The translations under genes and the position numbers were made by a program. Shown in pieces: positions 22,611-42,329 of a stretch of DNA of 64,000 nt. This DNA comes from Flavobacteriales bacterium (lineage in GTDB: Bacteria; Bacteroidota; Bacteroidia; Flavobacteriales_D; Parvicellaceae), in assembly GCA_029251405.1 (NCBI GenBank), contig JAQXDK010000036.1, forward strand, positions 1-64,000, read 5' to 3'. The notes under the pieces were generated by a model. It saw only the letters and a program-made list of their open reading frames with translations, was not told where the DNA came from and searched no databases. Numbering within the stretch: position 1 is the first letter of the stretch; each line of letters starts with the position of its first letter.

Positions 22611-24146
22611 ATGTACGATATAGAAAAACTTAATAATAAAAAAGTATCTGAACTCAGAGAAATTGCAGATGAACTAAATATTCAGAAATCTGACAAGTTA
22701 AAAAAACAAGAATTGGTTTACAAAATTCTAGACGAACAAGCTCTAAAACCTAGAGAAGAAAAAATCAAAAAAGAGGAATCTCCAAAACAAGAGACAAAAA
22801 AAACTCCTAGTACAGAAACTAAAAAAGCTTCGGATAATAAACCAAACGAAAATAATCCTCCTAAAAGAAGACCTAGTAACCAAGATAGAGACGTTAGAAA
22901 TAACGATCGCAACACCAACAGAAACGACCGTAACAACAATACCAACAGAAACGATCGTAACAACAATACCAATAGAAATGATCGTAACAACGAAAAGAAT
23001 AATAAAAGAGAAGATTACGAATATGATTTTAAGGGGATTGTCATAAGTGAAGGAGTTTTAGAATTAATGCAAGATGGATATGGATTTTTAAGATCAGCAG
23101 ATTTCCATTATTTATCATCTCCTGACGACGTTTATGTATCCCAATCTCAAGTTAAGTTTTTTGGCCTGAAAACTGGAGATACGATTAAAGGAGTTGTCAG
23201 ACCTCCAAAATATGGAGAAAGATATTTCCCTTTAGTTGAAGTTGAAAAAATTAATGGTAGAGATCCAGAATACATTAGAGACAGAGTCCCATTTGAATCA
23301 TTAACTCCATTATTTCCTTCAGAAAAATTTAAATTAACAGGACACAGTAACGAATCTCTTTCTACCAGAGTTATGGATTTATTTTCTCCAATTGGAAAAG
23401 GACAAAGAGGAATGATTGTTGCTCAACCAAAAACTGGTAAAACTGTTCTTTTAAAAGATGTTGCTAATGCAATTGCTGCCAACCATCCAGAAACCTATTT
23501 AATGGTACTTTTAATTGACGAAAGACCTGAAGAAGTTACCGACATGCAAAGAAGTGTTAAGGCGGAAGTAATCGCCTCTACTTTTGATGAACCAGCAGAT
23601 AGACATGTTAAAGTAGCGAACATAGTACTTCAAAAAGCTAAAAGATTAGTGGAGTGCGGTCACGATGTGTGTATACTTTTAGATTCTATTACTAGATTAG
23701 CAAGAGCTTATAATACAGTAATGCCTGCATCAGGAAAAGTTTTAACTGGAGGTGTAGATGCGAATGCTCTTCATAAACCAAAAAGATTTTTTGGTGCTGC
23801 AAGAAAAATAGAAAATGGTGGATCTTTAACCATACTTGCTACTGCTCTTACAGAAACTGGTTCTAAAATGGATGAGGTTATTTTTGAAGAATTTAAAGGA
23901 ACTGGAAATATGGAGCTTCAACTAGATAGAAAAATATCGAACAGAAGAATTTTCCCTGCAATAGATATTTTAACATCAGGAACGAGAAGAGAAGACTTGT
24001 TAATGGATAAAGAAACGCTTCAAAGAGTTTGGATACTCAGAAAACATTTAGCAGATATGAATCCAATAGAAGCTATGGAATTTATGAAAGACAGACTAAG
24101 ATCGACCAAATCTAACGAAGAGTTTTTAGTTTCTATGAATGGTTAG
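22611..24146 (+). CDS. rho: Transcription termination factor Rho with Asn/Arg-rich N-terminal insert
   Basis: A 511-residue RNA-dependent helicase that ends transcription. The N-terminal helical Rho-N domain covers residues 1-45. A disordered insert rich in Lys, Asn, Arg and Asp (about 50-140) contains tandem NDRNNNTNR units. The cold-shock-like RNA-binding domain follows (about 145-225, [22 protein letters not shown]), then the RecA-like core with Walker A PKTGKT (about 274-279), [13 protein letters not shown] and the arginine finger region. E. coli Rho has 419 residues; the extra length is the insert. Such inserts are known in Bacteroidota and Actinobacteria Rho and add RNA contacts or phase separation. 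The promoter is 80 bases upstream. Confidence 0.96.
22902..22994 (+). repeat. In-frame tandem repeat inside rho (27-base unit)
   Basis: A 21-base copy (22902-22922), two 27-base copies (22923-22949 and 22950-22976, differing at three positions) and a partial 18-base copy (22977-22994). Unit length is a multiple of three, so copy-number change would keep the rho frame. The encoded unit is NDRNNNTNR. Confidence 0.85.
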
Positions 24147-39216: not shown

Positions 39217-40470
39217 TTAAACTTTAACTTCTAAAACATCGCTAAATCTAGTGGTATAACAAGGAGATAATTTCTCTTGTTTCAATCGCCACTTTCTGTC
39301 AAAACCCTGAACAGCTAATCTTATTTTATTTCTACCCATTTTTTGATTAATATGATCTACGGCGCACATTATACTTTTAACCTTAAATGAATCTTTATTA
39401 CTAAAAAGACTTAACTGTTTGGAGTTTTCAGGAACAATATCCCCTACAATAACACCTGCTTTTTTATAACTAAAGCCTTTTTTATATATGTTTTTCAAGG
39501 CCATTAAAGCTTGCTTGGTAATTTCCATACTGTCATTAACGGGGACGTCTAAAGTTACTTTTTGACAAGGGTTGTACTGCTGATCGGAATCTTTAAAAGG
39601 ATTGGTTTTTATAAAAACTAGTATAGAGGAAGCCAAGCTTTTCTCTTTTCTCAACTTCATAGCACATGTCGACGCATAGGAAGACACAGCTTCTTCTAAT
39701 TCTTGTTGGGTAAACACCTCTAAACCAAAAGATCTAGAAGTGCAAATATTTTTTTTTCTTCCTGGCTGATATTCTAAAGAATAGCAAGGAATTCCTTTTA
39801 ATTCTTTAACCATCCTTAAACCATTAATACTCATATTATTCTTTATCCAAGATTCATTGGCTTTTACCAAATCTAATGCTGTTTTAAAACCGTTAGCGTA
39901 TAAAAACTTAGCATATTGTCTACCTATTCCCCAAAGATCTTCAACTGAAACATGTTTTAAAACCTCTTGTATTGTTCTTGGCTTCTTCATTAGAAAAACA
40001 CCAGTTTTTGTATATTTTTTAGCTACTCTATTAGCTACTTTAGCTAAAGTCTTAGTTGGAGCAACACCTATTGATACGGGAATACCTGTCCACTTACCTA
40101 CTTTTGATCTTAAATCCGTGGAGAACTGATTCAACTTATTGACTCCTTTTAAATCTAAAAAAGCCTCATCGATAGAATAAATTTCTATTGCTGGACTCCC
40201 TTCGTCTAGTATTTGCATTACTCTTCTAGACAAATCTCCATAGAGGGCGAAATTAGAAGAGAAAACATGTACTTTATGTTGGTCAAATATAGTTTTCATT
40301 TTAAAAGCAGGTGCCCCCATTTTAATCCCTAAAGCTTTGGCTTCATTACTTCTAGCTATTATACAACCATCGTTATTAGACAATACCACGATGGGTTTTT
40401 TTTCTAATTTCGGTTGAAATACACGCTCACAAGACGCATAAAAATTATTACAGTCTACTAGCGCAATCAT
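39217..40470 (-). CDS. umuC: DNA polymerase V catalytic subunit UmuC
   Basis: A 417-residue Y-family translesion polymerase. It opens [18 protein letters not shown] with catalytic Asp6, and the second catalytic pair is D101-E102 in [10 protein letters not shown]. The palm, fingers ([18 protein letters not shown]) and little-finger domains are complete, and the C-terminal UmuC-specific domain ends [18 protein letters not shown]. It copies past damaged bases when complexed with processed UmuD. Its ATG overlaps the umuD stop by four bases, so the two are translationally coupled. Confidence 0.95.
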
Positions 40471-40916
40471 ACCTTATGTATAATATGTGTAACTACGCCC
40501 CAAACTTGAAAATTCATTTCTTCAGTTATTTGAATAGGCTTAAATTTTGAATTCTCTGGATTAAGATATAGTTCTTCTCCCCTCTTTTGGATTCTTTTCA
40601 CGGTAAACTCGCCATTTAATACCGCTAAGACTATGGTGTTATTTTGGGGCTCTAGAGCTCGATCTACGACCATTACATCTCCGCTGAAAATTCCGGCATT
40701 TTGCATAGAATCTCCTGCAACACGGACACAAAAAGTAGCAGAGGGATGCTGAACTAAGTACTCTTGGAGGTTAAGATCTAAATCCATAAAATCCTCAGCA
40801 GGTGATGGAAATCCAGCTGGAACATCAGATTCGTAAAAGGGAATATTCAATGGATTTTTTTCTAATGAATAAAAACTCATTTCTTTGGTAGTATGTATCC
40901 GTTTTAATTTTTTCAA
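40467..40916 (-). CDS. umuD: UmuD translesion-synthesis peptidase subunit
   Basis: A LexA-like S24 self-cleaving protein. From the TTG at 40916 it is 149 residues. The predicted cleavage site is Ala34-Gly35 in [11 protein letters not shown], and the Ser-Lys dyad is Ser70 (GDSM) and Lys107 (FTVKR). An ATG at 40880 (residue 13, MSFYSL) is an alternative giving 137 residues. It is favoured if CAATTTTG at 40921-40914 on the minus strand, which includes the TTG, is the -7 box, with TTG of AATTGTCC 18 bases upstream as -33. Upstream repeats (40952-41000) suggest damage-responsive control. Confidence 0.93.
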
Positions 40917-40951
40917 AATTGGTAATATATCAACGAGGACAATTTCATATT

Positions 40952-41000
40952 TTTATTAACAAAAATCATAATTAGTTAACTACTATTTATTAACAAAAAT
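40952..41000. promoter_or_regulatory. Operator candidate upstream of umuDC: two 15-base repeats around a palindrome
   Basis: TTTATTAACAAAAAT occurs exactly at 40952-40966 and again at 40986-41000, same orientation, start to start 34 bases. Centred between them at 40973-40982 is the perfect palindrome TAGTTAACTA. The array sits 36 bases upstream of the umuD frame and ends against the rmuC stop. The symmetry suggests a repressor site controlling umuDC. The regulator is unknown. Confidence 0.55.
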
Positions 41001-41005
41001 AGTTC

Positions 41006-42247
41006 TTACATTTCGGTGGTTTCTGCTCTATCAATTAGTTTAGATGGCAATTTTTTTTTAGTCTTAGCACCTAATTTTTTCAGATTTTCTACTTTTTTAA
41101 TAATGTTTCCCCTTCCAACAACTAATTTATTCATCGCCTCTTCATAACTAGCCTGAGAGCTTTTTAAAGTTTTACCAACATTTAATAAATCGGAAACGAA
41201 ACCTTCAAATTTGTCGTAGAGTAGCCCTCCTTCTTTAGCAATTTCCAATACATTTTTCTTTTGGTCTTCTTGTTTCCAAATAGACGCTATAGTGCTTAAT
41301 GTTGCCAATAAAGTAGAAGACGATATTAAAACAATATTTTTTTCTAGTGCGTCTAAGTAAATCCCTTTGTGCTCGTGTAAAGCTAACATCAGTGCAGGTT
41401 CTATTGGCACAAACATTAATACGTGATCAGGAGCATTAATTCCGTAGAGAGACGGATAGTCTTTATTACTTAATTCTATAAAATGTTTTTTTATACTATC
41501 AATATGTTTTTTTAAAGCCAAGCTCTTTTCTAACTCATTTTGAGAGTTAAAATAAGATTCATAAGCGGTAAGCGAAACTTTAGCGTCTATAATTAAATGC
41601 TTGTTATCTGGAAGATTAATAATGAAATCTGGCTTTTTCAAGTTGCCTTCATCATCCTTATAACCACCTTGAGTTGTAAAATGAATTCCGTTGGTTAATC
41701 CGGATTTTTCAAGCAATACTTCTAATTGAATTTCGCCCCAGTCTCCTTGAACTTTAGAATCTCCTTTTAATGCATTGGTAAGATTAATTGCATCTTGACT
41801 AAGTCTTAAGTTTAAAGACTCTAGACTTTGGATTTTTTGGGTTAATGCAGCATTCCTATCAATATAATCTTTATTAGTTTCTTCAACTTTTTTCTTAAAG
41901 TTTTCAATTTCTTTACCTAAAGGATTTAATAAAGAACCTAATTGTTCACTATTTTGTTTTTTAAACTTTTCTGAGTTGTCTTCTAAAATTTTATTAGCAA
42001 GATTCTTAAAGGAGGCCGTAAGATGGACTTCATTATCGTCGTAGTGTTTTTTTAACTCTTCTATTTTAATTTTCAGATATTTGATTTCTTCTTCTTTGGC
42101 AACTATTTTTTTTTCTAAATTGATAATCTTATTTCTTTCCTCTTCTGTGTTAAAGGACGAATTTTGGTCATCATTTTTTTTTCTAGTGTTAAAAAAAATC
42201 ACGACCGAAAGCAAGATAATAAGCAATACTATTATTAGAGTTTCCAT
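41006..42247 (-). CDS. rmuC: RmuC-family DNA recombination protein
   Basis: A 413-residue protein. It has an N-terminal transmembrane anchor (about 3-20, IIVLLIILLSVVIFF), a long coiled coil (about 35-160), and the RmuC nuclease-like domain (about 165-380) with GDWGEIQLEVLLEKSGL, KPDFIINLPDNKHLIIDAKVSL and MFVPIEPAL. The D-x(n)-(D/E)xK pattern fits a restriction-endonuclease fold. RmuC limits inversions at short inverted repeats in E. coli. It lies directly upstream of umuDC with the repeat array between, forming a small DNA-damage group on the minus strand. Confidence 0.92.
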   Translation of the reverse strand: METLIIVLLIILLSVVIFFNTRKKNDDQNSSFNTEEERNKIINLEKKIVAKEEEIKYLKIKIEELKKHYDDNEVHLTASFKNLANKILEDNSEKFKKQNSEQLGSLLNPLGKEIENFKKKVEETNKDYIDRNAALTQKIQSLESLNLRLSQDAINLTNALKGDSKVQGDWGEIQLEVLLEKSGLTNGIHFTTQGGYKDDEGNLKKPDFIINLPDNKHLIIDAKVSLTAYESYFNSQNELEKSLALKKHIDSIKKHFIELSNKDYPSLYGINAPDHVLMFVPIEPALMLALHEHKGIYLDALEKNIVLISSSTLLATLSTIASIWKQEDQKKNVLEIAKEGGLLYDKFEGFVSDLLNVGKTLKSSQASYEEAMNKLVVGRGNIIKKVENLKKLGAKTKKKLPSKLIDRAETTEM

Positions 42248-42329
42248 AAAAAAAATTAGACTTAATTTAATAATTATCCAATATATAAAAGAAGAACATA
42301 AATAATTTAAGTTGTCTTAATAAAAAAAA

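Follow-up and report, generated by a model that had tools for sequence, protein, structure and literature searches.

The DNA analyzed here (the window) is a 64,000-nt stretch of a Flavobacteriales genome that is 97% complete and is called G000 below. It contains an S24 peptidase gene beside the gene of a Y-family polymerase with IMS, IMS_C, and DUF4113 domains, which identifies the pair as UmuD and UmuC (DNA polymerase V), with rmuC lying upstream (Table 1). UmuD carries the AGFPSPA cleavage region and the GDSM serine, and it keeps both the cleavage-site Gly and the Ser/Lys dyad; we take the Lys of GEFTVK to be the catalytic one, a position occupied by Ala in the aligned solved chain. Residues 23 to 147 of the 149 align to E. 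coli UmuD, with residue 23 pairing with E. coli residue 13, and the two proteins have the cleavage-site Gly and the active-site region in common. The TTG at 40916 is most likely the start codon of umuD, because the reading frames of relatives, compared by eye, have TTG, GTG, or ATG at or near the same position. In profile searches, G000 showed one RecA and one Y-family polymerase domain match, that of UmuC.

Table 1. Genes and sequence features at the umuDC locus (positions in the window)
Feature	Position	Strand	Remarks
umuC	39217..40470	-	Sole IMS-family (Y-family) polymerase detected in G000
umuD	40467..40916	-	149 aa from TTG at 40916; 137 aa from ATG at 40880
rmuC-umuD gap	40917..41005	-	89 nt; contains the entire array
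Proximal 15-mer	40952..40966	-	Exact copy in the window genome only; many relatives have a degenerate TTTTTT..A.AAAAA tract instead
Putative -7 element TAATTATG	40967..40974	-	One mismatch to TAnnTTTG; 19 nt after TTTG
Palindrome TAGTTAACTA	40973..40982	.	The conserved block ends on the right with its TTAACTA
Conserved umuD-upstream block	40973..40996	-	Consensus TTGTKNAWAA-N7-TNAACNA
Right half-site TTAAC	40975..40979	-	Suggested dyad GTTAA-N10-TTAAC
Distal 15-mer	40986..41000	-	Includes TTTGTTAATAAA, which overlaps the conserved block in its left half
Left half-site GTTAA	40990..40994	-	Suggested dyad GTTAA-N10-TTAAC
Putative -33 element TTTG	40994..40997	-	TTG in 16 of 16 aligned loci
rmuC	41006..42247	-	Same strand as umuD, upstream of umuD

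A sequence-only reading of this DNA had described a symmetric repeat-palindrome-repeat array in front of umuDC, and most of that description was confirmed. The two 15-mers are identical and lie 34 nt apart from start to start, inside the gap and upstream of umuD on the minus strand. The palindrome is centered between them to within two bases, as claimed, its center at 40977.5 being 1.5 nt off that of the pair (40976); the symmetry is approximate only, with spacers of 6 and 3 nt. The array had also been placed just upstream of the umuDC promoter, which it probably overlaps instead. An exact repeat of at least 15 nt arose in 1 of 5,000 first-order Markov sequences made from the gap (0.0002); with 27 upstream gaps of 50 nt or more in the window, the chance of such a repeat window-wide becomes very roughly 0.5%. 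Palindromes of 10 bp are ordinary, with 105 perfect 10-mers in the window or 0.15 per 89 nt, and the 15-mer, allowing up to 2 mismatches, is matched 8 times in the window versus 5.1 expected. Exact nonoverlapping 15-mers within 75 bp are found at just one further place in the window, 22929-22972, where the 17-mer CGTAACAACAATACCAA occurs twice, 27 nt apart (22929 and 22956).

The array is not conserved. Neither the 15-mer nor TAGTTAACTA occurs within 110 nt before the start at any of the 16 other close umuD loci, an outcome that the sequence-only reading had named beforehand as counting against its proposal, and the exact array looks private to the window genome. The 15-mer did not lead to further DNA repair genes in G000 either: its core TTTGTTAATAAA has 11 sites, versus 9 for the reversed sequence used as a control, and no repair neighbors were seen by eye. 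Two of these sites are in the window array, 7 are inside reading frames, and 2 are intergenic, one of them 72 nt before a DnaB-helicase-like gene and the other between a glutamine-synthetase-like gene and its neighbor (by eye). In 8 of 12 loci, window included, the left element of the block described below recurs in degenerate form 34 to 37 nt downstream; the other 4 have no second copy at that distance. The null frequencies of these second copies were 0.002 in the window genome, 0.005 at locus L007, and 0.045 to 0.133 at the other six, and only 2 of the 8 are individually strong.

If the array itself were the operator, one regulator would occupy the two 15-mers 34 bp apart, with the palindrome between them. 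The rarity of so long an exact repeat in an 89-nt gap and the degenerate second copies speak for such an arrangement, against which stand its absence from all 16 relatives, the weakness of most second copies and their lack in a third of the loci, and the 9 exact core copies outside the window, which by eye are not beside repair genes. We consider this improbable, and the array as an operator is not supported. In our reading, two similar tracts recently became identical 15-mers by coincidence; a chance origin is plausible both for this identity and for the palindrome.

Conservation upstream of umuD is found in a block that only partly coincides with the array: the distal 15-mer gives its left part (TTTGTTAATAAA) and the palindrome its right part (TTAACTA). 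A search of 60 genomes with UmuD gave matches in 24, and in 17 genomes, G000 among them, the match was close (E value below 1e-60). TTGT is invariant and T.AAC largely kept in an alignment of 16 umuD upstream regions. An unsupervised motif search with one site per sequence (OOPS) over 12 divergent loci, from which near copies had been removed and which included the window, recovered the block in all 12, starting 65 to 83 nt before the umuD start. Its information amounted to 22.8 bits (400 restarts) versus 13.4 ± 0.5 bits (maximum, 14.6) in 60 Markov-resampled sets (200 restarts each), none of which reached the observed value. Furthermore, a matrix made from 13 relatives, leaving out the window genome, ranked the block first on both strands of the 64 kb, with a score of 17.3 versus 12.8 for the second site, which falls inside umuC. 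In the 94 of 105 pairs with a fourfold-site identity below 0.60, the mean identity was 0.42 at fourfold sites, 0.63 over the 24-nt block, and 0.49 over the next 10 nt; the 14 core block columns, which were chosen after looking, were 0.85 identical. Judged from these alignments, synonymous sites are saturated between these species while the block stays similar.

One possible view of the gap is that it is AT rich, holds chance repeats, and does nothing. The palindrome does occur at about the expected frequency, and the 15-mer is itself AT rich, with inexact matches in the window near the chance level. The conserved block rejects this view for the distal half of the gap, where it is largely refuted over 40973-40996, and we regard it as very improbable.

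Three kinds of gene precede the block, encoding RmuC, a divergent RmuC, or a protein with a weakly PD-(D/E)XK-nuclease-like body (one of each assigned with Pfam, the others by eye), so the block goes with umuDC. What lies upstream of umuD varies between close species, with rmuC at 41006-42247 in the window and other genes at L002:120-1313 and L003:274-1389. The L002 protein has an N-terminal stretch in common with the window RmuC (54% identity over 46 aa) and a body unlike it, which has a PD-(D/E)XK match below threshold (PF04411; E value, 0.0009); the L003 gene encodes the divergent RmuC. Neither an Rfam match nor a consensus RNA structure was found at the block, which therefore more likely acts as DNA. 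Its dyad symmetry (GTKNA-N10-TNAAC) gave a permutation value of 0.0064 at the central position and 0.056 over all 16 centers; we regard this as suggestive. A dimeric regulator would have a roughly symmetric site of this kind. The umuD block has not been reported for Bacteroidota in the literature searched.

Bacteroidota promoters have a -33 element with TTG, spaced about 19 nt from the -7 element. On a promoter without other functions in this phylum, conservation of the spacer is not expected. Before umuD, TTG, a 19-nt spacer, and TAATTATG would make a putative sigma-A promoter of this kind, TAATTATG having one mismatch to the -7 consensus TAnnTTTG (PMC9723704); unlike such a promoter, the region has conserved bases in the spacer and a -7 element that is weakly conserved among relatives. 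Indeed, the spacer positions T.A.AA and T.AAC are kept about as well as TTG in the aligned loci, and the -7 positions are kept less well than those of the spacer. Within the 27 gaps of the window, the pattern TTG-N(17-21)-TAnnTTTG occurs twice exactly versus about 0.3 expected, and 6 times with one mismatch versus 5.4 expected, with no clear spacing peak for the one-mismatch pattern, so the scan lends little weight to the pattern in general.

In a rival explanation, the block is nothing more than the core sigma-A promoter of umuDC, giving a low constitutive transcription, with control exerted by UmuD cleavage and no dedicated regulator. The invariance of TTG in 16 aligned loci, 19 nt before TAATTATG, agrees with this explanation, which is in difficulty with the spacer, kept about like TTG, and with the weak -7 element, expected to be the most important part. 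An operator laid over the promoter is favored because the conservation of the spacer is roughly symmetric and exceeds that of the -7 element. We give the core promoter alone a substantial share of the probability, well short of even, and only slightly less than we give a promoter with an operator.

Searches for further block sites bear on the same choice. The block pattern occurred 0 to 7 times in each of 39 genomes of the family, in total 109 times versus 92 for the reversed control (both summed over genomes), and no second repair gene with a block emerged from core, pattern, and model searches, with genes judged by eye. A sequence model (R1) over 9 genomes, the training set of which contained all 7 umuD sites, had the umuD site as its best match in all 7 genomes having the block. 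The 30 R1 loci listed comprise these 7 and 23 others, 14 inside reading frames and 9 intergenic; among the matches listed, none of the 9 intergenic non-umuD loci lies before a repair gene (by eye). The lack of a second repair target is uncommon for a regulator and agrees with a plain promoter as well, as do some model matches before housekeeping-like genes, where promoter elements would be found.

Several of the sites recur between genomes, as judged by eye. Pattern sites recur in two places: where an aminotransferase-like gene ends, the site spanning the stop codon in most genomes, and between lipoprotein-like and ftsY-like genes. Matches to the 15-mer core or the model recur before a glutamine-synthetase-like gene in G000 and G006 (L035 and L128) and before a thioredoxin-reductase-like gene in G009 and G010 (L127 and L131).

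The sequence-only reading had proposed that, since many Bacteroidota lack a canonical LexA regulon, a different regulator or UmuD itself might bind the array. UmuD was the only S24 protein found in G000 with PF00717 at E values up to 1, and each of the 16 further close-UmuD genomes (54 to 96% complete) gave one match at E values up to 0.001, again UmuD. The case for the absence of an XRE-S24 repressor from G000 is strong, though not absolute. In the family, 30 of 39 genomes had an S24 match of any kind. Gel shifts in PMC8565304 showed that published Bacteroidetes LexA counterparts bind CTAA-N5-TTAG before a recA gene and GGA-N5-TCC before a umuD gene, in both cases in the promoter. None of the 24 loci with a umuD match, window included, had CTAA-N5-TTAG with up to 1 mismatch or an exact GGA-N5-TCC upstream, and no known SOS box was found at the window umuD. 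The published noncanonical XRE-S24 LexA regulon (PMC8565304) is presumably from the same phylum and has the same target operon, umuDC; the window umuD differs in having neither box, and the 17 close-UmuD genomes differ in having no detected S24 protein except UmuD. Both the apparent lack of an S24 repressor and that of known SOS boxes would also be expected of a plain promoter. Sibling genera without a close UmuD have proteins combining HTH and S24 domains, confirmed in 2 of 2 tested, and exact CTAA-N5-TTAG was found upstream of 3 of 8 S24 genes examined there. L063, L064, and L065 are XRE-S24 (noncanonical LexA-like) genes of these genera with exact CTAA-N5-TTAG boxes upstream.

Binding by UmuD itself is not supported by the protein, which is E. 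coli-like and in which no DNA-binding domain was found, the sole domain match being PF00717 at residues 26 to 142 of 149. About 34 residues precede the cleavage site, and such an N terminus would leave little room for a DNA-binding domain. Control by UmuDAb and DdrR in Acinetobacter, as described in PMC11332147, is comparable in the absence of LexA and in having an operator before an error-prone polymerase gene; it differs in that UmuDAb has an N-terminal HTH-like region. According to the same source, this region is missed by domain searches, so the argument against a UmuDAb-type UmuD in the window rests on the short N terminus. A self-regulating UmuD of this type is not supported for the window. 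The idea of a non-LexA regulator fared better: a LexA-type repressor is apparently missing and a conserved operator-like block is present, and what did not hold is the array as its site. No candidate regulator was identified.

A different element marks other repair genes of the family. The upstream region of recA in G000 contains the 17-bp dyad ACGTAA-AACGA-TTACGT (L140, G000:C52:109839-109855), and a second exact copy of ACGTAA-N5-TTACGT lies before the gene of a 108-aa protein (L158, G000:C37:73761-73777). Among the 39 family genomes, 31 have exact dyads, 58 in all, versus 7 for the reversed control (both summed over genomes); they precede recA in 7 genomes, radA in 6, umuD in 1, and a gene for a protein of 102 to 119 aa in 28, the remaining 16 sites being before other or unassigned genes. 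Downstream genes were named by eye except for those checked with Pfam. In the order, 32 of 60 genomes have the dyad, and its excess over the control is weaker beyond the family, where 49 genomes gave 45 sites versus 18 control sites (both summed over genomes); the 19 loci inspected there include recA in 4 cases, radA in 1, and rmuC in 1 (L219, Pfam RmuC), and several others are transposase-like or unassigned. Among 152 dyad site-orientations scanned, one half of them facing the wrong direction, 21 have a perfect TAnnTTTG within 40 nt, which starts 10 to 11 nt after the dyad in 17 cases; no perfect -7 box accompanies the dyad before recA in G000. The dyad set looks like a DNA repair regulon, as far as its positions before genes can tell, and the dyad motif is a stronger result than the umuD block. 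No report of ACGTAA-N5-TTACGT in Bacteroidota was found in the literature searched, and in the main text of PMC8565304, GTAA/TTAC is seen only within other boxes.

The dyad differs from the umuD block in sequence and spacing. It precedes umuD in some relatives, exactly in G017, with 1 mismatch in G059, and with 2 in G034; it is absent from the window umuD, where the best match has 4 mismatches in 12 positions. Inexact copies in the window are at the chance level (22 versus 27.5 expected). One sequence with 2 mismatches, ACATAAATAATTTAAGT, lies at 42296-42312 between rmuC and a divergent nitroreductase gene, the count of such matches being that expected by chance, and TATATTGG is found 10 nt past it on the minus strand.

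The dyad is also present in genomes where UmuD is the only S24 protein found. Nothing convincing came of XRE proteins as its regulator in 5 genomes; G000 offered a broken frame, a 63-aa frame, and a sub-threshold match. At L199 (G000:C23:14006-14170), an HTH_3 match reads through a TAG and a TAA, and the regulator gene there is probably broken. The 102- to 119-aa protein family comprises L158:1558-1881 and 27 similar loci, one copy being truncated, and gave no Pfam or NCBIfam match in the 4 members tested. The model of the 108-aa protein has a mean pLDDT of 79.7, and its fold had no PDB match at an E value of 0.001 or better. We consider this family a candidate damage-response effector or coregulator.

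A conserved promoter/operator block before umuDC in a lineage without detected LexA is supported by these results; the mechanism beyond it is what we infer. Our preferred explanation, held tentatively and at somewhat below an even chance, is a umuDC promoter with an overlapping operator for a candidate non-S24 regulator, UmuD cleavage being the main damage input. TTG would be the -33 element and TAATTATG a weak -7 element, and the spacer bases GTKNA-N10-TNAAC would bind a dimeric helix-turn-helix regulator, not LexA-like, that sets umuDC transcription. The damage signal would act mainly after transcription, through RecA-stimulated self-cleavage of UmuD at Ala-Gly. The identity of the 15-mers would have arisen in the window genome as the left element and the T-then-A tract 34 nt downstream came to match, and the palindrome would be an accidental by-product of the right half-site.

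Error-prone polymerases are usually under tight damage-dependent repression. With umuDC encoding the sole Y-family polymerase detected, apparently no LexA-like repressor, and a conserved umuDC element, this lineage would show how mutagenic repair is controlled after the loss of LexA. In a broader scenario, which we put forward as speculation and consider unlikely, umuDC in the genera g1, g4, g7, and g9 left LexA-type control for a private LexA-independent operator, GTKNA-N10-TNAAC, and recA and the gene of the 108-aa protein stayed under the family-wide dyad with a non-S24 binding protein. If this were true, damage signaling in these genera would run without a member of the LexA family. Found before recA and radA and also before some of the umuD and rmuC genes, the dyad itself offers a concrete handle for tracing a non-S24 DNA damage regulator.
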